DNA of 62,019 nucleotides, from NCBI GenBank assembly GCA_900258555.1, contig LT984854.1:329136-391154 (forward strand). The letters are read 5' to 3'. Source of the DNA: an uncultured Desulfobacterium sp. GTDB lineage: Bacteria > Desulfobacterota > DSM-4660 > Desulfatiglandales > Desulfatiglandaceae. Both the position numbers and the translations under genes were made by a program. Positions 50,155 to 60,728 of this stretch are shown here, in pieces. The stretch's first letter is position 1; the number at the start of each line of letters is the position of its first letter. The notes under the pieces were generated by a model that was not told where the DNA came from, ran no database searches, and was given only the letters and a program-made list of their open reading frames with translations.

Positions 50155-51483
50155 ATGGATTGCCGGACCGCAGAAGATGTAAAAAAGATTGTCAGGGACA
50201 AGGACGTAAGCTTTATTCAATTCTGGTTCACAGATGTCCTTGGGGCCTTAAAGAGCTTTGCCGTAACCCCGTCTGAACTGGAAGAAGGCATGTCAGAGGG
50301 GATGGGCTTTGACGGTTCATCTATTGAGGGATTCGCCAGGATTGAGGAAAGCGACATGATTGCAAAGCCGGATCCCGCCACCTTTCAATTTGTCCCCTGG
50401 AGGAGCGTGGATCGGCCTGTGGCCAGGATGTTCTGCGACATCCTTAATCCCGATGGTACTCCCTATGAGGGGGACCCCAGGTATATATTCAAGAGGCTCC
50501 TTGCCAAGGTCGCACAGCGGGGTTACACCTATTACATAGGTCCGGAGCTGGAGTATTTTTATTTCAAGGACAACAAGGGCACAGAGGTCATTGATACAGG
50601 CGGCTACTTTGACTCCAGGCCCCTGGACATGGCTGGCACCTTGAGGAGGGATACCATATTCGCCCTTCAGGCCATGGGCATCCAGGTGGAATACAGCCAT
50701 CACGAGGTGGCGCCCAGTCAACACGAGATTGACCTGCGTTACGACGAGGGCCTGAGGATGGCGGATAAGACCATGACCTACCGGCTGGTGGTAAAGGAGA
50801 TCGCAAACCAGCACGGCGTTTACGCCACCTTTATGCCCAAGCCTATTTTCGGTCAGAACGGAAGCGGGATGCATGTACACCAGTCTCTTTTCAAGGGAAA
50901 TAAGAACGCCTTTTATGATCCCAACGACAAGTATAACCTATCGGATATCGCCAAGCATTATATTGCCGGGCTCTTGCGTCACGCACCTGAGATAACCGCC
51001 GTAACAAACCAGTGGGTCAATTCATATAAGCGTCTGGTCCCAGGCTATGAGGCGCCCGTTTATGTATCCTGGGCAAGGAGAAACCGATCTGCCATGATAC
51101 GGGTACCCATGTACAAACCCGGAAAGGAATCCGCGACCAGGATAGAATTTCGCTCACCGGATCCGACTTGTAACCCATATCTTGCCTTTGCCGTCATGTT
51201 GGCTGCAGGGCTTGAGGGGATTGAGAAAAAATATGAGCTGCCTGACCCGATTGAAGAGGACATCTTTGAGATGAATCCTGCGGAAAGACATGCCCATGGT
51301 ATAACCGACCTGCCTGGAAATCTCTATGCGGCGATCCTGGAGGCGGAGAAGAGTGAGCTTGTGAGAAAGACCTTGGGCGATCACGTATTCACCAAGTTTA
51401 TCGCCAACAAGAAAATAGAATGGGATGCATTCAGGATACATGTAAGCCAGTTTGAGATTGAAAGATATCTGCCGAGGTTGTAA
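50155..51483 (+). CDS. glnA: Glutamine synthetase type I
   Basis: 442 residues with GGAGGGAG before the ATG. It makes glutamine from glutamate, ammonia and ATP. Motifs: MGFDGSSIEGFARIEESDM, YIGPELEYFYF, HHEVAPSQHEID, MPKPIFGQNGSGMHVHQSL and RSPDPTCNPYLAFAV. The shorter length and the C-terminal NLYAAILEAEKSEL, without the NLYDLPPEE adenylylation-type Tyr, put it nearer the GS I-alpha group, expected to be feedback-regulated rather than adenylylated. The class II synthetase-like gene follows 78 bases downstream. Confidence 0.95.
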   Translation: MDCRTAEDVKKIVRDKDVSFIQFWFTDVLGALKSFAVTPSELEEGMSEGMGFDGSSIEGFARIEESDMIAKPDPATFQFVPWRSVDRPVARMFCDILNPDGTPYEGDPRYIFKRLLAKVAQRGYTYYIGPELEYFYFKDNKGTEVIDTGGYFDSRPLDMAGTLRRDTIFALQAMGIQVEYSHHEVAPSQHEIDLRYDEGLRMADKTMTYRLVVKEIANQHGVYATFMPKPIFGQNGSGMHVHQSLFKGNKNAFYDPNDKYNLSDIAKHYIAGLLRHAPEITAVTNQWVNSYKRLVPGYEAPVYVSWARRNRSAMIRVPMYKPGKESATRIEFRSPDPTCNPYLAFAVMLAAGLEGIEKKYELPDPIEEDIFEMNPAERHAHGITDLPGNLYAAILEAEKSELVRKTLGDHVFTKFIANKKIEWDAFRIHVSQFEIERYLPRL

Positions 51484-51561: not shown

Positions 51562-52794
51562 ATGAAAGATGACACCATGTCCATAATAGGACAGAGCCTT
51601 TTTAATTTTCAGGCCGCCTTGATGCAGGAAGGCTCAAGCTTTGCGGAATATCTGGACAAATACTATTTCAGCAAATGGATGGGTGACACCCTTTATGCAG
51701 CCATGTCGCTTAGGACCACCTTTGTCAATGCCATGCATCAATTCCTGGCAGAAGAGGGGCTGTTCAACCTGGAGCGAATCCAGCTGAGCCCTGTAACAGA
51801 CCCACTCGCCCATGATGTGGAACATGTCCCGAACATCCATTATAAGGGCCAGGTCTATGTAATGACCCACAGCATGATCTACTCAAAATTTTTGGCCTGC
51901 CACAACCCCAGGATAAAGGGTATCTTTGTGGACTCTCCCAACCTCAGGCTGGAGATCGAAAGCCCGGACAGGAGGCAGAGGGGAAAGTACCTTATAGATT
52001 TCAGCCAGATGGATATAGAGGTCAGGCGAAACCGCGGCATTGACATTGAGACCTATCTGAAAGAGCCCAAGAAGGTACGGGAGATCCTCACAGAGGATAT
52101 GGAAAAGGGGCTTGATATGTTCGAGCGCCTGATTATCCATTCCATGTCAAGGATCGTGGAAAAAAACGAGGGTGATCTGAAAACGCTCGGGGTTGCCATT
52201 GAGGTGCCCAAGCAGCCGTTTCCGCGTTTTAAGTGTGATATATCAAGGAAAAAATACGGCCCGGGCTTTGAGGTCAAACTGGGAGAGGAGACAGAGGCCC
52301 CGTTTTTCTGGATAACAGGGCTATTGAGGGAAAACTACGACCTGGTGTACCCATACCTCAAACCTGAAGGAAAAGTCATGCGCTCTGAGATAAATTCGGA
52401 GATGATATACAACTACGACATATGCGCAAAGAGCATTATCCGCGACACCGGCAAACAGACCACCGGCCTTGAGATCCTCTCGGGCGCCGTCAGGGAATGG
52501 ATATACGAGGCCATTGTAGAGCGCCTGGTGGATAACGGGATCATACCGGTGAGGCCTGTAATCTTTGAAGGTAATATCAAAAATATTGATGAATTCGGCG
52601 GTTACGGCCCTTTTCTGCTAATGGCGGCCAGGAAGGATAAAGACGGAAACCAGACATTTCCCGAGACCTTCGGGGGGGGCATAGGCGTTGAGAGGACCCT
52701 TTACGCGCTATGTCGAGGCCCTGTCCTGGACAAGATAGATGATATCACCTTTTTTGGAAAGAACCCCGACAGCCATCAGATCTACATGTTTTAG
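51562..52794 (+). CDS. Class II aminoacyl-tRNA-synthetase-like protein, probable asparagine synthetase
   Basis: 410 residues, catalytic-core only, with no anticodon-binding OB domain. Class IIb core motifs visible: the motif 1 region LSPVTDPLAHDVEHV, the motif 2-like YLIDFSQMDIEVR, and the motif 3 FGGGIGVERTL with its ATP-binding Arg. This is the arrangement of the archaeal asparagine synthetase related to AsnRS, which makes Asn from Asp, ammonia and ATP. Position after glnA and near glutamate synthase fits an ammonia-linked role. Family is clear, substrate is inferred; an aminoacyl transferase role remains possible. Confidence 0.8.
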   Translation: MKDDTMSIIGQSLFNFQAALMQEGSSFAEYLDKYYFSKWMGDTLYAAMSLRTTFVNAMHQFLAEEGLFNLERIQLSPVTDPLAHDVEHVPNIHYKGQVYVMTHSMIYSKFLACHNPRIKGIFVDSPNLRLEIESPDRRQRGKYLIDFSQMDIEVRRNRGIDIETYLKEPKKVREILTEDMEKGLDMFERLIIHSMSRIVEKNEGDLKTLGVAIEVPKQPFPRFKCDISRKKYGPGFEVKLGEETEAPFFWITGLLRENYDLVYPYLKPEGKVMRSEINSEMIYNYDICAKSIIRDTGKQTTGLEILSGAVREWIYEAIVERLVDNGIIPVRPVIFEGNIKNIDEFGGYGPFLLMAARKDKDGNQTFPETFGGGIGVERTLYALCRGPVLDKIDDITFFGKNPDSHQIYMF

Positions 52795-53118: not shown

Positions 53119-53574
53119 ATGCGTTACAACAACAGTCGCACACTGGCCCTTTTTTATTGCCAAAATGTACCAGGGGCCGGTGAACGTGAAAGAATCGGCC
53201 TTGAAAAAAAATATGGCCTGAGCATCAGGTTTTTTCCCATTGCCTGTAGCGGAAGGCTGGAGCCGGTTCACCTGCTGAGCGCCCTCGAGAATTTCGCCGA
53301 TGCAGCCTATGTGATTACATGCCCTCAAGGCATGTGCCGTTATTTTGAGGGAAATTTGAGGGCAATCAAAAGGGTCCGGAGGACACAGGATATTATCGCA
53401 GGCATAGGCCTTGAAAGGGAACGTGTGGGGATTGTCACCGGTTTAAAGGAAGACCCGAAGACCCTTGCAGAGCATGCCGAAGAGATCTTCGACAAGACCC
53501 TGCAGATGGGACGATCGCCGGTGCTTGATAAAGGAGAAGCAAATTATGATCACTGCGCAACAGAAGCCCATTAA
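53119..53574 (+). CDS. MvhD/FlpD-like iron-sulfur subunit
   Basis: 151 residues with GAGGA upstream of ATG. Four Cys (C14, C43 in ACSGRLEP, C68 and C73 in CPQGMCRYFEGN) fit the [2Fe-2S] electron-transfer subunit MvhD of methyl-viologen-reducing hydrogenase/HdrA complexes. The usual CxxC pair of the first motif is reduced to one Cys. In acetogens this subunit passes electrons between HdrABC and MetVF. No hdr genes are in the window. It overlaps metV by 29 bases. Confidence 0.82.
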   Translation: MRYNNSRTLALFYCQNVPGAGERERIGLEKKYGLSIRFFPIACSGRLEPVHLLSALENFADAAYVITCPQGMCRYFEGNLRAIKRVRRTQDIIAGIGLERERVGIVTGLKEDPKTLAEHAEEIFDKTLQMGRSPVLDKGEANYDHCATEAH

Positions 53575-54214
53575 CGAGATCCGGGGGATGCTGGGCCCCT
53601 ATAAGCGGATACTGGTCCTGGGCTGCGCCTCCTGCGTTGCCGAATGTGCGGCAGGGGGGCAAAAAGAGACTGCCATGCTGGCATCCACCTTGCGGATGAT
53701 GGCAAAGATGAATAACGAAGATGTCACTATCCACGAACACACCCTGGACAGACAATGTGTCAGAGACTTTGTGGTCAGGCTGGATGAAATTATCTCCTCC
53801 TATGACGCCGTGCTCTCCCTGGGCTGCGGGGCAGGGGTGCAGGCCGTGGCCGAGATGTTTTCAGAGATACCCATAATTCCCGCCCTTAACACCGAGTTTA
53901 TCGGCGAGACAAGGGCCCAGGGGCTGTGGATGGAAAACTGTCTGGGGTGCGGCGACTGCATGCTTTACTATTTTGGCGGGGTCTGCCCTCTTGCACGGTG
54001 TTCAAAGCAGCTCTTTAACGGGCCGTGCGGCGGCTCTGTGGGGGGCAGGTGCGAGATCAACCAGGATGTTGACTGCGCATGGCAGCAGATTATTGACCGT
54101 CTTACGAGGTTCGGGGCCATGGACAGGCTTGAAATGATTTATCCGCCCAAGAACTGGTCCAGAAAGCAGGGGGGCGGCCCGAGAAAGATCATCAGGGAGG
54201 ATCAGCAAAGGTGA
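53546..54214 (+). CDS. metV: MetV, methylenetetrahydrofolate reductase partner
   Basis: 222 residues from the ATG at 53546 (AAGGAG 9 bases upstream, inside the previous gene); an earlier frame start at 53465 adds unrelated residues. MetV is the zinc/iron-sulfur partner of MetF. Cys clusters: CASCVAEC near the N terminus, CLGCGDCMLYYFGGVCPLARC and GPCGGSVGGRCEI. Its stop overlaps the GTG of metF (GTGA). Together they form the MetVF reductase known from acetogens. Confidence 0.9.
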   Translation: MITAQQKPINEIRGMLGPYKRILVLGCASCVAECAAGGQKETAMLASTLRMMAKMNNEDVTIHEHTLDRQCVRDFVVRLDEIISSYDAVLSLGCGAGVQAVAEMFSEIPIIPALNTEFIGETRAQGLWMENCLGCGDCMLYYFGGVCPLARCSKQLFNGPCGGSVGGRCEINQDVDCAWQQIIDRLTRFGAMDRLEMIYPPKNWSRKQGGGPRKIIREDQQR

Positions 54215-55143
54215 AATATGTCAGCAGATTAAAAAGTGTGCTCGAAAAAGGCGGGTTTGCAGTGACATCTGAGTGCGGTCCGCCCAAGGGGGCCGACCCG
54301 CAGGCGATTTTGAAAAAGGCGGAACTGCTGCGCGGCAAGGTGGACTCTGTCAATGTTACCGATAACCAGACCGGTGTCGTGCGGTTATCAAGCATGGCCG
54401 CGGGTGTTCTTATCAGGCAGGCGGGGCTTGATCCGGTCCTCCAGATGGTAGTGAGGGACAGGAACCGCATTGCCCTTCAATCCGATATCCTGGGGGCCTC
54501 CGCCATTGGCATCAGAAACGTCCTGTGCCTTTCAGGCGACCACCAGAGTTTTGGAAACCAGCCTGATGCCGTGGGCGTCTTTGACTTAGATTCCATCCAA
54601 TTTGTACAGGTGGTAAAGAACATGCGCGACGAGCGGGTGGTTATAGGCGGCGACACCCTGGGCCAGCCACCTGATATGTTTATCGGGGCCGCGGCCAATC
54701 CGTTTGCAGACCCCCTCGATTTCAGGGTGGTGCGGTTGGCCAAAAAGATAAATGCGGGCGCTGATTTCATACAGACACAGTGTATATTCAATTTTGAGCG
54801 ATTCGACAAGTGGCTTTCGGCTGCAAGGGACAGGGGCCTTACGGAAAAGGCCTGTATCCTTGGCGGTGTGACACCGCTTAAGTCCGCCGGAATGGCAAGG
54901 TATATGAAGACAAAGGTCTCGGGAATTGATGTGCCCGATGAATTGATCAGGCGCATGGAATGCGTTTCAAAGGACAGACAGCGGGAAGAGGGGATAAGGA
55001 TCTGTGTTGAGACAATAGAGAGACTGAAACAGACGCCGGGTATCAGGGGAGTTCATATTATGGCCATTGAATGGGAAGAGGCGGTCGGTGAGATCGCCCA
55101 AAGGGCCGGCCTTCTGCCGAGACCTGTCCCTGATGATCAATAG
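54211..55143 (+). CDS. metF: Methylenetetrahydrofolate reductase MetF
   Basis: 310 residues from GTG, coupled to metV by 4 bases. FAD-binding TIM barrel: TSECGPPKGADP (near 14), SVNVTDNQTGVVRLS, RNVLCLSGDH, GADFIQTQCIFNF and ILGGVTPLKS. It reduces methylene-THF to methyl-THF, for methionine or the Wood-Ljungdahl methyl branch. The Fe-S flavoprotein gene starts 9 bases later. Confidence 0.95.
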   Translation: MKYVSRLKSVLEKGGFAVTSECGPPKGADPQAILKKAELLRGKVDSVNVTDNQTGVVRLSSMAAGVLIRQAGLDPVLQMVVRDRNRIALQSDILGASAIGIRNVLCLSGDHQSFGNQPDAVGVFDLDSIQFVQVVKNMRDERVVIGGDTLGQPPDMFIGAAANPFADPLDFRVVRLAKKINAGADFIQTQCIFNFERFDKWLSAARDRGLTEKACILGGVTPLKSAGMARYMKTKVSGIDVPDELIRRMECVSKDRQREEGIRICVETIERLKQTPGIRGVHIMAIEWEEAVGEIAQRAGLLPRPVPDDQ

Positions 55144-55152
55144 GGGGAAGGG

Positions 55153-56556
55153 ATGCCTGAAAAATATGTCATCCATACCACAACGGCGCCAAACCGTTTT
55201 AAGGCCGTTTCCAGGTCCGGGATCATCGCATGGGAAGAGGGCTGCCTCAGGTGCGCCGTATGCGTAAAGGAGCGTTGTGTCTACGATGTATATTATAAGC
55301 GGAAGCTTGATCCCCGTCAGATGATAGATTCCATTGACAACCTCTGTATGAATTGCCTGCGCTGCGTGCAGGGCTGCCCCAAGGAGTTGATCACCAAGTC
55401 GCTCAACCCCGAGTATAAGGAGATGGGAGATGATTTTTTTACTCCTGAAATCATCTCCAAATTGTGGTCACAGGCGGAGACAGGCAAGATTCCGGTCTCG
55501 GGCGCAGGCTATCCGGGACCTTTTTCCGGTCCGGGTTTTGACTCCATGTGGACGGATATGTCCGAAATTGTGCGGCCTACAAGGGACGGGATCCACGGCA
55601 GGGAGTATATAAGCACTGCCATTGACCTGGGAAGAACGATCAAAAGCCTTAGATTCGATGATTCCGGTGCGCTTCTGGCTGAGACTCCATTGCTTGTTGA
55701 TATACCCCTTCCCATCCTGCTCAAGGTCCCGCCGTTCGGGGCGATATCAGATAAGACGCTTCTTGGCTGGGCCATGGCTGCAAAGAGACTTGGGACACTG
55801 CTGGCGTTAAAAATAGACGACGTAGAAAAACTGCCTGATCAGTTTCGTCCCTGGCTTGTGCCTGTGCTCGAAGAAGATCTAACTGATCCTGCAATCATCC
55901 CGGTGGGCGTTCGTATTGTAGAGATCCCTTGGAGCAGCAGGTTTGAGAAGAGCGCAAAGATAATAAAGGATACGTTTCCATCCATGCTGGTCTGTGTAAA
56001 TATCGCCATGATGGACGGCATGGAGGAAAAGGCCGTATCGGTTGCTGATGCAGGACTGGACATCATACATCTGGAGTTAGGCCGGTATAGCGAAAAAGAA
56101 CCTGAGACATATGATCCCAGGCGTGTAAAGGATGCCATCCGCTCCGTACACATGAAACTGGTTGAAACAAATATCAGGGATGAGGTCACTCTCGTTGCAA
56201 GCGGGGGATTCGCCATGGCAGAACATGTGGCCAAGGGCATGATCTGCGGGGCGGACGCGGTAATGGCCGAATTTCAACTGCTGATCGGTCTCCAGTGCCG
56301 TATGTGCCGTCGTTGCGCAACAGGGCTTTCATGTCCGGTGGATATACAGGATGCATCGGCCAAATGGGTTGCAGCAAGGGTTGTAAATCTCTTTGGCGCG
56401 TGGCACAACCAGTTGATCGAGCTGATGGGCGCGATGGGGATCAGAGACGCCAGGCGCCTGAGAGGCGAGGTGGGCCGTGCCATGTTTTTTGAAGATCTTG
56501 ATAAGGTGGCCTTTGGCTCCCTGGGTTCGGCAGGGGAGGGTTTTGAACTTGAATAA
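55153..56556 (+). CDS. Fe-S flavoprotein, degenerate glutamate-synthase-like paralogue
   Basis: 467 residues. The N terminus has ferredoxin-type Cys groups CLRCAVCVKERC (near 35-46) and CMNCLRCVQGCPKE (near 67-80). A TIM barrel resembling the glutamate synthase FMN domain follows (about 170-420), ending with CRMCRRCATGLSCPVDI. The barrel lacks the usual GGGMSYGS and GGTGAAPE motifs seen in the next gene, so it probably does not make glutamate. It begins 9 bases after metF and ends overlapping the ribosome-site region of the next gene. I infer an electron-transfer or structural role for MetVF or for the synthase. Confidence 0.75.
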   Translation: MPEKYVIHTTTAPNRFKAVSRSGIIAWEEGCLRCAVCVKERCVYDVYYKRKLDPRQMIDSIDNLCMNCLRCVQGCPKELITKSLNPEYKEMGDDFFTPEIISKLWSQAETGKIPVSGAGYPGPFSGPGFDSMWTDMSEIVRPTRDGIHGREYISTAIDLGRTIKSLRFDDSGALLAETPLLVDIPLPILLKVPPFGAISDKTLLGWAMAAKRLGTLLALKIDDVEKLPDQFRPWLVPVLEEDLTDPAIIPVGVRIVEIPWSSRFEKSAKIIKDTFPSMLVCVNIAMMDGMEEKAVSVADAGLDIIHLELGRYSEKEPETYDPRRVKDAIRSVHMKLVETNIRDEVTLVASGGFAMAEHVAKGMICGADAVMAEFQLLIGLQCRMCRRCATGLSCPVDIQDASAKWVAARVVNLFGAWHNQLIELMGAMGIRDARRLRGEVGRAMFFEDLDKVAFGSLGSAGEGFELE

Positions 56557-58033
56557 CAGCGCAAAATTTAGATTTCCCGAGGTGGTAAAAACCCCTTCCA
56601 GGTTTAGAAATCCGATTGGAAAATACAGACTTCACAGGACCGAAGCCTGCGAGACGTGCGGCAAGTGTGTTGATTTGTGCAAATACGGGGTCCATGTAAT
56701 AAGAAGGGGAAGGGTGTATATTGAAAACTCATATCTGTGTGTGGGCCCGGACTGCCCAAGTCCCTGTTACGAGGTCTGCCCTGTAGGTGCGCTTTCATGC
56801 GGGAAAAACCCTGTCTTTGATCAGCTTGGCGATTTCAGATGGACCCCTGATCTGCTTGTAAGCACCTGGCGCATGGCGGAAACAGGCAGTGTCCCTTTGG
56901 CAGGCCTTGAATACAAAAGAGGCTCCTCAGGCGGCGGATTCGATAAACTGCGTATTGTTATGAAGTCTGGCCAAACAGGCCAAGCAGACATCCCGGACCA
57001 AGACATTGATGTAAGCCTTCAGTTAAACCGCAGGGACGATCATGGCCACAGGATAAAAATCCATGTCCCTTTTTATGGCGGGGGCATGTCCTATGGCTCT
57101 GTCAGCATCAATACAATTTTAAGCAGGATAAAGGCGGCAAAGGCCCTTGGGACATTCTGCTGCACCGGCGAGGGCGGATACCCTGATGAATTAAAGCCCT
57201 ATGACGATCATGTGATAACACAGGTGGCCACCGGGCTGTTCGGGGTAAGGGAAGAAACCATAAAGAGGGTAAAGATTGTAGAGTTCAAGTATGCCCAGGG
57301 TGCCAAGCCCGGCCTTGGGGGGCACCTGCTTGGGGATAAGGTAACCCCTGGTGTTGCACGCATGCGAGGGGCCGTAGTCGGCCATCCCTTGTTTTCTCCT
57401 TTTCCATTTCACAGTGTCTACTCGGTGGAAGACCACAAAAAGCATGTGGACTGGATAAAGGCCATAAACCCACAGGCACTGGTCTCCGTCAAGGTGTCAA
57501 CGCCTACCGATGTAGACATGGTGGCCGTGGGAAGTTATTATGCAGGCGCACATATCATACACCTGGACGGTAGCTATGGCGGCACCGGCGCAGCCCCCGA
57601 GATCGCAAAAAAGAATATTGCCATGCCCATAGAATACGCCGTTCCAAAGGTCCACCGGTTTTTGACCGCAGAGGGTGTAAGGGACAAGGTTACTGTCATA
57701 GCAGGGGGAGGTGTCAGGACACCACATGACGTGGCCAAGATTATCGCACTAGGGGCAGACGGCGTCTGCACCGGCACGGCTGATTTGGTGGCCCTTGAAT
57801 GTATCAGATGCCATAATTGCGAAAGCGGCAGGGGCTGCGCAAGGGGGATAGCCACAACCGATCCGGAGCTGATGGAGTTGATGCAGCATGAATGGGGGAC
57901 CAGGCGACTTGTCAACATGTTCCTCGCATGGAAAAAAGAATTGGTCCGAATACTAAAACGCCTGGGCATGACAAGCATCAGAGAACTCGTTGGAAGAGAA
58001 GACTGTCTGGTCCATCTGGATTATATGAAATAA
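56549..58033 (+). CDS. Glutamate synthase FMN/Fe-S domain protein
   Basis: 494 residues from the TTG at 56549 (GGAGGG upstream; an ATG at 56477 lies inside the previous gene). N-terminal Fe-S module CETCGKCVDLCKYG and CVGPDCPSPCYEVCPVG, then the FMN barrel: VPFYGGGMSYGS, LGTFCCTGEGGY, AQGAKPGLGGHL, HLDGSYGGTGAAPE and VIAGGGVRTPHDVA, with the [3Fe-4S]-type CIRCHNCESGRGCARGI. It supplies the central domain of a glutamate synthase; the glutaminase and GXGXG domains are on the next gene. Confidence 0.9.
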   Translation: MNNSAKFRFPEVVKTPSRFRNPIGKYRLHRTEACETCGKCVDLCKYGVHVIRRGRVYIENSYLCVGPDCPSPCYEVCPVGALSCGKNPVFDQLGDFRWTPDLLVSTWRMAETGSVPLAGLEYKRGSSGGGFDKLRIVMKSGQTGQADIPDQDIDVSLQLNRRDDHGHRIKIHVPFYGGGMSYGSVSINTILSRIKAAKALGTFCCTGEGGYPDELKPYDDHVITQVATGLFGVREETIKRVKIVEFKYAQGAKPGLGGHLLGDKVTPGVARMRGAVVGHPLFSPFPFHSVYSVEDHKKHVDWIKAINPQALVSVKVSTPTDVDMVAVGSYYAGAHIIHLDGSYGGTGAAPEIAKKNIAMPIEYAVPKVHRFLTAEGVRDKVTVIAGGGVRTPHDVAKIIALGADGVCTGTADLVALECIRCHNCESGRGCARGIATTDPELMELMQHEWGTRRLVNMFLAWKKELVRILKRLGMTSIRELVGREDCLVHLDYMK

Positions 58034-58085
58034 ATACCCAAAGGGCACTAAGATACCGAAAGTTTAGGAAATCAAGGAATAAAGC

Positions 58086-60728
58086 ATGATTATGTCTGAG
58101 CATCAAAACATATCAAACATTATCACATCCAGAAAATCTCTTGTAAAAGATCTGCCGCAAAGGTCCTGCTTTGAGACTGTGGCGGAAGGCGGCTGTGGAG
58201 TCACCGGTTTTGCCTGTAGCATTCCAGTCAGGGGAAAGCACATATTTGAACCATCCAGACAGATGCACAACAGGGGTAACGGCCGCGGGGGAGGCATCGC
58301 GGCCATGGGCTTTGATCACAGGATGCTGGGGGTCTCAGAAGATATCCTGGAAAATGGCTATATATTACAGATCGCCTTGCTGGAAGACGGGGTGCTGGAT
58401 GAGCTTGAAAGGCTGTTTATCGAGCCCTTTTTCAATGTTGATTTTTCAGAGGCCCTTCCCCATGTGGACGATTACAGGGATATCCGGGGTCTTGATGTCA
58501 GGCCCCCGGATGTCTGGCGTTTTTTCGTCCGCGTAAAGCCGGATGTATTAAAGGCCTTTGTTGACAGTAACGGTTTAAACGGATTGAGGCCAAGGCAGGC
58601 AGAAGACGAATTTGTCTTTCAAAACAGTTTTAAGATAAACAAGATGTTCTATGAGGCCGCAGGCCGTCAGAGGGCCTTTGTTTTATCACATGGCCGCAAC
58701 TTTTTTATTCTCAAGATCGTCGGTTATGCAGAACAGGTGGTCCAGTACTATAAACTGGACGATTTTAAGGCCCACATATGGATCGCCCATCAGCGCTATC
58801 CCACCAAGGGCAGGGTCTGGCATCCAGCAGGCGCCCATCCGTTTGTAGGGCTGAACGAGGCACTGGTCCATAACGGGGACTTTGCCAATTACCATTCTGT
58901 AACAGAGTATCTGAGACAAAAAAATCTATACCCACAGTTTTTGACAGACACCGAGGTCTCGGCCCTCCTGTTTGATCTCTACAGCCGCACATACGGCTAC
59001 CCTCTGGAATATGTCATAGAGGCCCTTGCTCCTACCATGGAAAGGGATTTTAATAAGCTGCCGGCAGAAAAACAGAAGATCTACAGGGCGATTCAGGCCA
59101 CCCATATCCATGGCTCCCCGGACGGCCCCTGGTTTTTTATCATCGCACGAAACAATACGGAAAACGACAGGCTTGAACTCATTGGCATAACCGATACCGC
59201 CATGCTGAGGCCCCAGGTGTTCGCCCTTCATGACGGCCAGGTCCAGGTGGGGCTTGTGTGTTCTGAAAAACAGGCAATTGATGCAACTCTAAAGAGCCTA
59301 TCCGAGGAAGACCCCAGGGTCGGCACCGTGGCAGACCTTTACTGGAACGCACGCGGGGGGAGTTATACCGACGGAGGGGCATTTGTCTTCGGCCTTGAAA
59401 AAAACGGCGGCTCGCTTGAACGCAGGCTTACATGTGCAGACAAGTTCGGATCGTCTGTCACGGTGCAGGAGGGGCAGTTTCCCTATCTACCTGGCCGTGT
59501 ATATTATCTGATGGAGGACGAATCCAGGGAACGATTCGACATCGCCAGGTTCTTTGACCTCCAAAGACCCGATCTGCTGTTTACTTATTTAAAAGATGGG
59601 ATAAGGCTATGGGATTACGCTGATCTTATGGATTGCCTAAAAGAGATAAGGGGGTGGGCACTAAAGGCAGACGCCCATTTTGACGTGGCGCTTGATGCCC
59701 TGACATTGCTTCTGGACAGACGCTATCCTACATATGACAAAAAGCGCAGGTCTGTCCTGCAGATGATAGCCCAGACCATTGAGACCATATTGCGCGGTCT
59801 GCCGTCCCTTATGACACAGAATGAAAAGGGGGCATACAGAAAGATAGACTGGGAGACCAGGGAGTTTTTCAGGGGCCCTGTCCACAATGAAAAGGTGTTG
59901 ATCATTGACGGATCTCTGTTTCCGCCCGAGGGTGATCACTGTGACAGCAGACTGATGGCCGAGGCCTATTTAAGGGGATGGCGCAGGTTTATAGTATTCG
60001 GTCTCAAGGGCCAGAGGTTTCACGGCTGCGGTTTCGGCCCGGATTGCGGAGGAGTAAGAATTGATATATACGGGAGCTCCGGTGACTATCTCGCATCCGG
60101 CATTGACGGCATGACAGTATATGTCCATGGCAATGCCCAGGATCAACTCGGCCAGATCATGAAATCAGGCAAGCTGATTATTTACGGTGACGTAGGCCAG
60201 ACTTTCATGTACGGCGCAAAAGGAGGCGAGGTATACGTGATGGGTAACGCGGCGGGTAGGCCCCTCATAAACGCGGTGGGAAGCCCCAGGGTTATTATAA
60301 ACGGCACGTGCCTTGATTATTTGGCCGAGTCCTTCATGGCGGGAGATCCATTGAACGGCGGCGGATTCGTTATCTTAAACGGTGTAGAATTTGATAATGA
60401 GGGAACAGTGCATCCCTTAGACACCCCGTATCCGGGGGCGAACCTCTTTTCACTGGCCTCCGGCGGGGCCATATATGTCAGAGACCCCTACAATCTGATT
60501 GACGACCAGCAACTAAACGGCGGAGAGATCGCACCTCTCGATCAAAGGGACTGGGAGCTTATCCTGCCCATGCTTGAAGAAAATCAGAGGCTTTTCGGGA
60601 TCTCGATTGAAAATGATCTCTTGATGGTAAACGCTGTGAAGAAAAACCCCTTGGATGTCTACAGAAAGGTGAGGCCGCAACAAAAGGATGATATCGCCAA
60701 AGACGGCCTGGAAGAATGGGAGGATTGA
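58086..60728 (+). CDS. Glutamine amidotransferase class II fused to GXGXG domain (glutamate synthase part)
   Basis: 880 residues. Class II amidotransferase domain with Cys37 in EGGCGVTGF, MHNRGNGRGGG, HQRYPTKGR, LVHNGDFANY and TDTEVSALLFDLYSRT. A long middle part (about 440-600) is unassigned. A C-terminal GXGXG repeat domain (about 640-800) has GLKGQRFHGCGFG, VYVHGNAQDQLG, IIYGDVGQTF and VYVMGNAAGRPLI. In GltB the FMN domain lies between these two; here it is a separate gene upstream. Cys37 must be unmasked by removal of a 36-residue leader. It is the last gene of the operon. Confidence 0.88.
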   Translation: MIMSEHQNISNIITSRKSLVKDLPQRSCFETVAEGGCGVTGFACSIPVRGKHIFEPSRQMHNRGNGRGGGIAAMGFDHRMLGVSEDILENGYILQIALLEDGVLDELERLFIEPFFNVDFSEALPHVDDYRDIRGLDVRPPDVWRFFVRVKPDVLKAFVDSNGLNGLRPRQAEDEFVFQNSFKINKMFYEAAGRQRAFVLSHGRNFFILKIVGYAEQVVQYYKLDDFKAHIWIAHQRYPTKGRVWHPAGAHPFVGLNEALVHNGDFANYHSVTEYLRQKNLYPQFLTDTEVSALLFDLYSRTYGYPLEYVIEALAPTMERDFNKLPAEKQKIYRAIQATHIHGSPDGPWFFIIARNNTENDRLELIGITDTAMLRPQVFALHDGQVQVGLVCSEKQAIDATLKSLSEEDPRVGTVADLYWNARGGSYTDGGAFVFGLEKNGGSLERRLTCADKFGSSVTVQEGQFPYLPGRVYYLMEDESRERFDIARFFDLQRPDLLFTYLKDGIRLWDYADLMDCLKEIRGWALKADAHFDVALDALTLLLDRRYPTYDKKRRSVLQMIAQTIETILRGLPSLMTQNEKGAYRKIDWETREFFRGPVHNEKVLIIDGSLFPPEGDHCDSRLMAEAYLRGWRRFIVFGLKGQRFHGCGFGPDCGGVRIDIYGSSGDYLASGIDGMTVYVHGNAQDQLGQIMKSGKLIIYGDVGQTFMYGAKGGEVYVMGNAAGRPLINAVGSPRVIINGTCLDYLAESFMAGDPLNGGGFVILNGVEFDNEGTVHPLDTPYPGANLFSLASGGAIYVRDPYNLIDDQQLNGGEIAPLDQRDWELILPMLEENQRLFGISIENDLLMVNAVKKNPLDVYRKVRPQQKDDIAKDGLEEWED

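Follow-up and report, generated by a model that had tools for sequence, protein, structure and literature searches.

In many uncultured anaerobes, glutamate synthase (GOGAT) is encoded without GltD or an obvious ferredoxin partner, which raises the question of where the electrons for glutamate formation come from. A second question is how the electrons released by oxidation of methyl-tetrahydrofolate (methyl-THF) are disposed of. Both may be addressed by one predicted complex, encoded by a six-gene operon (MvhD, MetV, MetF, GltS1, GltS2 and GlxBC, all on the forward strand) at positions 53119-60728 of a 62,019-nucleotide stretch, hereafter the window, of an uncultured Desulfobacterium sp. (assembly GCA_900258555.1, contig LT984854.1, positions 329,136 to 391,154). 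Here it is argued, with a probability of roughly 0.55, that MetVF and MvhD would form the electron-input module of the operon's glutamate synthase, with methyl-THF oxidation driving glutamate formation.

Operon organization and catalytic residues

The initial annotation described six genes in one direction, most of them overlapping or within 60 bases of each other, and no Hdr gene; both descriptions hold for the operon, in which the largest gap is 52 bp. The first gene (53119..53574; Pfam FlpD, 70 bits) encodes an MvhD/FlpD-type [2Fe-2S] electron-transfer protein and overlaps by 29 bp with metV (53546..54214; Pfam DUF5981, 118 bits), which encodes the iron-sulfur (Fe-S) subunit of a MetVF-type methylene-THF reductase. 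This gene in turn overlaps by 4 bp with metF (54211..55143; Pfam MTHFR, 138.7 bits), encoding the methylene-THF reductase (MTHFR) subunit. GltS1 (55153..56556) follows after a gap of 9 bp and overlaps by about 8 bp with GltS2 (56549..58033), and GlxBC (58086..60728) is reached after 52 bp. The GltS2 start is placed at the TTG codon at 56549 by analogy with relatives, the longest open reading frame beginning at 56477. No Rfam elements were found around the operon, and a promoter scan was uninformative (13 matches versus 8.3 expected).

In the products of the first three genes, the residues expected of working enzymes are retained. Cysteines 14, 43, 68 and 73 of the MvhD FlpD domain are kept in 95-97 of 97 operon copies, and 13 cysteines of MetV in 78-79 of 79. 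For MetV, no relative in the PDB was found at a credible E-value. The MetF residues E21 (76/76 operon copies), D110 (73/76) and Q190 (75/76) align with solved MTHFRs (human, Thermus), and we take these folate-site and catalytic residues to be the equivalents of E. coli E28, D120 and Q183. By its DUF5981 domain, cysteines and folate-site residues, the MetV-MetF pair of the window is assigned as a MetVF-type methylene-THF reductase, and loss of function is not indicated, at the level of sequence, for any operon partner.

The remaining three genes, which had been annotated as glutamate synthase components, are indeed of GOGAT type, but together they make up a complete three-subunit split GOGAT. 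GltS2 carries the catalytic flavin mononucleotide (FMN) glutamate-synthase domain and an Fe-S domain (Pfam Glu_synthase, 308 bits), and matches A. brasilense GOGAT at 3.7e-51, with the FMN barrel, the GOGAT Fe-S cysteines and the 2-oxoglutarate and FMN loops all present. GlxBC is a class-II glutamine amidotransferase fused to the GOGAT GXGXG domain (Pfam GATase_6 and GXGXG), in which Cys37, behind a 36-residue leader, and the HNRG, HNGD and DTE motifs are invariant in all 72 operon copies. The arrangement expected of an NADPH-dependent GOGAT, with GltD encoded beside the large subunit, is not found here, the operon encoding no GltD. In GltS2, Cys418/421/424/430 (window 57800-57840) include an invariant fourth cysteine, C421, which is valine in A. 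brasilense GOGAT; a [4Fe-4S] rather than the usual [3Fe-4S] cluster may result.

Conservation of the gene order

GltS1 was searched for in 148 relatives and in a collection of 84,980 species genomes. At least 557 stretches of this collection encode a GltS1 relative; the best 80 of these were used, and 105 loci were left after removal of duplicates, a sample biased toward relatives of the window GltS1, with more distant ones unsampled. Operon membership was judged by spacing, and most of the relatives are metagenome-assembled genomes.

MvhD-MetV-MetF-GltS1-GltS2-GlxBC is the dominant order among the 105 non-redundant loci, a conservation that rules out chance adjacency of the operon genes. Relatives at 40-90% identity have this order as well, as do members of other phyla, and among the named hosts are Desulfobacterota, Nitrospirota, Spirochaetota, Latescibacterota and Candidatus Abyssobacteria. 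Upstream content was counted in the 80 loci with at least 2.7 kb before GltS1. MvhD lies on the input side of GltS1 in 78 of these, and MetV and MetF are both within the operon in 58; six have MetV without MetF (L149, one of the six, lies at the end of a contig), 14 have only MvhD before GltS1, and two have an FAD/4Fe-4S dehydrogenase in place of MvhD. Separate locations in relatives, for which the initial annotation had proposed a survey of gene order, are thus not the rule: the linkage of MetVF to GOGAT holds in most relatives, but in about a fifth of the sampled loci MetVF is outside the operon while MvhD is kept.

The ancestry of MetVF was followed in a tree of MetV plus MetF with 99 rows, which like the other trees is a quick search supported by the Shimodaira-Hasegawa-like approximate likelihood ratio test (SH-aLRT) only. 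One clade (SH-aLRT 98) consists of 66 rows, all of them GOGAT-linked, and is separate from the Wood-Ljungdahl copies that are linked to HdrA. In other cases, linkage to GOGAT is separate: the MetVF of L084 is placed in the HdrA-linked part of the tree, that of L145/L146 belongs to a third, divergent group with its genes behind GlxBC, and that of L178/L087/L183 lies on another branch, possibly representing one more separate linkage. Beyond the main clade, MetVF would therefore appear to have been recruited to GOGAT at least two or three more times. Mapped onto the GltS1 tree, the MetVF label requires 11 changes, at least six of which are forced by the starred branches. As judged from these trees, MetVF behaves like a plug-in module, gained and lost repeatedly while the MvhD-GltS core next to it stays constant. 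MetF is encoded elsewhere in genomes whose GOGAT operon has none, as is MetV in several genomes whose operon is without MetVF.

GltS1 as a degenerate barrel

GltS1 combines an N-terminal dicluster ferredoxin domain with a C-terminal cysteine cluster (Pfam Fer4 and the C-terminal part of Glu_synthase). It is about 25% identical to GltS2 over its length, and the two are fused to each other in L083 and L087. GltS2 has 86 conserved positions that are the same in A. brasilense GOGAT, and 56 of them are lost from GltS1, including the GEGG loop, the entire QGAKPGxGGxLxGxKVT segment and GGTGAxP, and the FMN-contacting lysine is replaced; these loops and the lysine presumably serve the FMN/2-oxoglutarate site, and GltS1 does not have the make-up of a catalytic FMN barrel. 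Twelve Fe-S cysteines are retained, eight of them N-terminal and four C-terminal. An AlphaFold2 model (mean predicted local distance difference test 79.7, predicted template modelling score 0.81, residues 115-148 poor) has a TIM barrel, and Foldseek on this model shows that fold and nothing finer. The N-terminal region gives a weak match to the HdrA C-terminal ferredoxin domain (5odc, E=0.001), and likewise to other dicluster ferredoxins.

Because the FMN/2-oxoglutarate loops are gone while the 12 Fe-S cysteines are kept, the simplest reading is that GltS1 is a dead barrel retained as an Fe-S wire, and the proposed point of electron entry. Fe-S flavoproteins had been described behind MetF; this is apt for GltS2, with its FMN barrel, but GltS1 is probably not a flavoprotein.

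The position before GltS1

The two loci among the 80 that have no MvhD are L091 and L092. In L091, a 630-residue FAD_binding_4/FAD-oxidase_C/Fer4_8 protein is encoded immediately upstream of GltS1, and in L092, as well as in L214 and L215, which were added later, a similar dehydrogenase is fused at the GltS1 N terminus. On the GltS1 tree, the three fused proteins diverge strongly and share one branch, with L091 apart, suggesting that the dehydrogenase state has two origins. Gene fusion is classical evidence, here for the passage of electrons from the upstream protein to GltS1. Since MvhD is near-constant, MetVF is variable, and another dehydrogenase is found in this place and even as a fusion with GltS1, the site just ahead of GltS1 most likely serves as a slot for electron input. 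The gene content, its conservation, the catalytic residues kept or lost and the exchangeable input modules can all be read directly from the loci.

MvhD might itself be the true GOGAT input, fed by an HdrA-type hub driven by NADH, H2 or formate, with MetVF only a side branch that gives or receives electrons. MvhD occurs in 78 of 80 loci beside a variable MetVF, as such a hub would have it, and HdrA is found behind GlxBC, beside MvhD-GltS, in L074 and L176, with Hdr-like genes and a second MvhD in L084 and L090; elsewhere, MvhD is described as a partner of HdrA (PMC2702500). However, no HdrA is encoded in the operon of the window or in those of most relatives, and the dehydrogenase fusions represent direct input with neither MvhD nor HdrA, and an HdrA hub is considered unlikely.

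A further explanation needs no electron exchange at all: MetVF would supply methionine and one-carbon metabolism, the GOGAT would run on ferredoxin or NADPH, and the genes would be grouped for co-regulation. Both products feed amino-acid synthesis, glnA often adjoins the operon, and GltA/NfnB-like proteins are encoded elsewhere in the genome. Nevertheless, the operon has no methionine-synthesis gene and its most constant partner, MvhD, is an electron carrier; moreover, MetVF joined the operon on more than one occasion, six loci have kept MetV but not MetF, and the slot also takes another dehydrogenase, fused to GltS1. Biosynthetic grouping is therefore improbable.

Predicted electron path and energetics

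For MetVF and MvhD as the input module, the following path can be proposed. The MetF flavin would oxidize methyl-THF to methylene-THF, and electrons would pass through the MetV Fe-S clusters and the MvhD [2Fe-2S] cluster to the ferredoxin domain of GltS1, and from the GltS1 clusters to GltS2 and its FMN. There they would reduce iminoglutarate, formed from 2-oxoglutarate and ammonia that GlxBC would free from glutamine and channel to GltS2. Wood-Ljungdahl-type loci have the order HdrA-MvhD-MetV-MetF, and on this basis GltS1 would stand in the place of HdrA as the partner of MvhD, in comparison with type IV MetVF-HdrABC-MvhD complexes. The physical complex, the electron path and its direction are what we infer from the loci. 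Electron bifurcation within the operon is unlikely, as the operon has no gene for a flavin subunit of the HdrA or NfnB type.

Eight MTHFR-family matches are present in the host genome, which spans 5.43 Mb and is 98.9% complete, and the host is likely a sulfate reducer with the Wood-Ljungdahl pathway, since a CODH/ACS gene and DsrA are encoded. The GOGAT FMN domain of the operon is the only full one found in the genome, which also encodes one Glu/Leu/Phe/Val-dehydrogenase-family protein and, at other sites, two GltA-type proteins whose genes follow reductase-like genes in the manner of NfnAB.

Formation of glutamate from 2-oxoglutarate and ammonium lies near -120 mV, and higher if glutamine gives the ammonia. 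The methylene-THF/methyl-THF couple, at the value given in PMC8760232, lies at -200 mV, and the difference between the two means that methyl-THF could drive the GOGAT while the reverse would be unfavourable. In a methyl-THF-oxidizing sulfate reducer, glutamate synthesis could thus be a cheap electron sink, because the electrons of methyl-THF are too positive for easy reduction of NAD+ or ferredoxin. The initial annotation had suggested that the flavoproteins might carry electrons to or from MetVF. Exchange is the best-supported part of this suggestion (by the conserved order, repeated recruitment, the swap and fusion at the slot, and a GltS1 with Fe-S clusters only), whereas 'to or from' can be narrowed, on thermodynamic grounds, to probable flow from methyl-THF to GOGAT, and the flavoprotein label probably does not extend to GltS1.

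Flow in the other direction would make GltS1 the acceptor of reduced ferredoxin, feeding GltS2 and, through MvhD, MetVF, such that reduced ferredoxin would power a dual reductase that forms both glutamate and methyl-THF. The dicluster ferredoxin domain of GltS1 would suit this, and purified type II MetVF enzymes, as reported in PMC8760232, use reduced ferredoxin for methylene-THF reduction in vitro. Yet the replacement of MetVF by a GltS1-fused FAD dehydrogenase would be left unexplained, and other MetVF-MvhD-HdrA sets for methylene-THF reduction are already present in the genome. Such a dual reductase is very improbable.

Several points weigh against methyl-THF-driven glutamate synthesis by MetVF and MvhD. 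In about one-fifth of the sampled loci MvhD-GltS is not accompanied by MetVF, and in six MetV has no MetF beside it; hence, this type of GOGAT can do without MetVF. MvhD could draw its electrons from an HdrA complex encoded at another site, the genome's NfnB/GltA-like proteins could donate NADPH electrons in trans, and a drain on methyl-THF would compete with acetyl-CoA synthesis in autotrophy. A more specific proposal is tentative, at somewhat less than even odds: that one complex would couple Wood-Ljungdahl methyl oxidation one-to-one to nitrogen assimilation, at about -200 mV and not by NADPH or ferredoxin, and would represent one among several plug-ins in a larger GOGAT family whose exchangeable donors dock on the dead-barrel subunit.

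Comparison with known systems

MetVF enzymes are classed as types I-IV, none of which, in the classification as given in PMC8760232, includes a glutamate synthase, and full-text searches of the open-access literature gave no description of a MetVF-GOGAT operon, subscription papers being outside the scope. The operon would thus appear to be a new electron-input variant of both GOGAT and MetVF, with an exchangeable input that is here MvhD-MetVF. Type IV methylene-THF reductase (HdrCBA-MvhD-MetVF; Moorella thermoacetica, Sporomusa ovata) shares with it MvhD-MetV-MetF, an additional partner (predicted in the operon) for electron exchange by way of MvhD, chemistry based on Fe-S clusters and flavins, and a MetVF without an NADH site. 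Unlike type IV, the operon has no HdrABC, its predicted partner is a glutamate synthase with GltS1 in the corresponding position, and, with no bifurcating HdrA flavin, linear transfer is expected. In type III (RnfC2-MetVF, Acetobacterium woodii), an extra redox subunit on MetVF likewise sets the partner, which there is NADH via RnfC2 and here would be glutamate synthase.

On the GOGAT side, the GATase_6, GXGXG and FMN-barrel domains, the catalytic residues and the GOGAT-type cysteine set are those of archaeal-type split glutamate synthases (GlxB/GlxC/GlxD-like) and bacterial GltB, to which the operon adds the degenerate Fe-S barrel GltS1 and a presumed dedicated MvhD-MetVF input, with no GltD. 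A split GOGAT with its own non-NADPH input module in the cluster is also described for the F420-dependent glutamate synthase of methanogens (PMC3087415) and for the FrhB10-glutamate synthase clusters of anaerobic methanotrophic (ANME) archaea (PMC9012536). In those systems, however, the input is an F420-binding FrhB-like subunit and not methyl-THF with MetVF and MvhD, and the F420-dependent enzyme with its FrhB-like subunit is itself unproven by purification, according to PMC3087415.

Flanking genes and other observations

Two genes precede the operon on the same strand, with 324 bp between them and mvhD: glnA, encoding glutamine synthetase (50155..51483; NCBIfam GlnA TIGR00653, 545 bits, above cut-off), and a gene for an AspRS-derived protein resembling archaeal-type asparagine synthetase A (51562..52794; best NCBIfam match the PRK06462 family, 132 bits, under the cut-off of 309). 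The former precedes the operon in many relatives, and the latter, which lies between glnA and the operon, adjoins the operon in L039, L049 and L065 too. An N-methylglutamate synthase for methylamine use, which GOGAT-like subunits next to a glutamine synthetase and one-carbon genes might suggest, is disfavoured, the neighbouring glutamine synthetase matching GlnA at 545 bits versus 324 bits, under cut-off, for type III.

Four other loci have similar-looking proteins adjoining the GOGAT operon (L042:1397-2698, L081:14237-15610, L083:2314-3621 and L091:1098-3698), the last of which is 867 residues long with a PPDK_N (pyruvate phosphate dikinase ATP-binding) domain. At L068:15103-19378, on a contig shared with L121, the first cluster is immediately followed by another, divergent one, which reads MvhD-MetF-GltS1-GltS2 and has no MetV. 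In L218 (6546-6905; G018, same family), a 135-residue frame joins the end of GltS1 to part of GlxBC, representing either an internal-deletion scar or an assembly artefact. An apparent MetF-MetV fusion, a single 519-residue frame with MTHFR followed by DUF5981, occurs at G000:C2:164715-166010 (L007, L097) among the eight MTHFR-family matches of the host genome.

Implications

If methyl-THF is the electron donor of this GOGAT, one-carbon oxidation would be tied directly to nitrogen assimilation. GltS1, which recurs in at least 557 matching stretches of the genome collection, is likely the docking and electron-entry subunit, and from the order of the genes ahead of it, it may be possible to predict, for many uncultured lineages, which electron donor serves glutamate synthesis.

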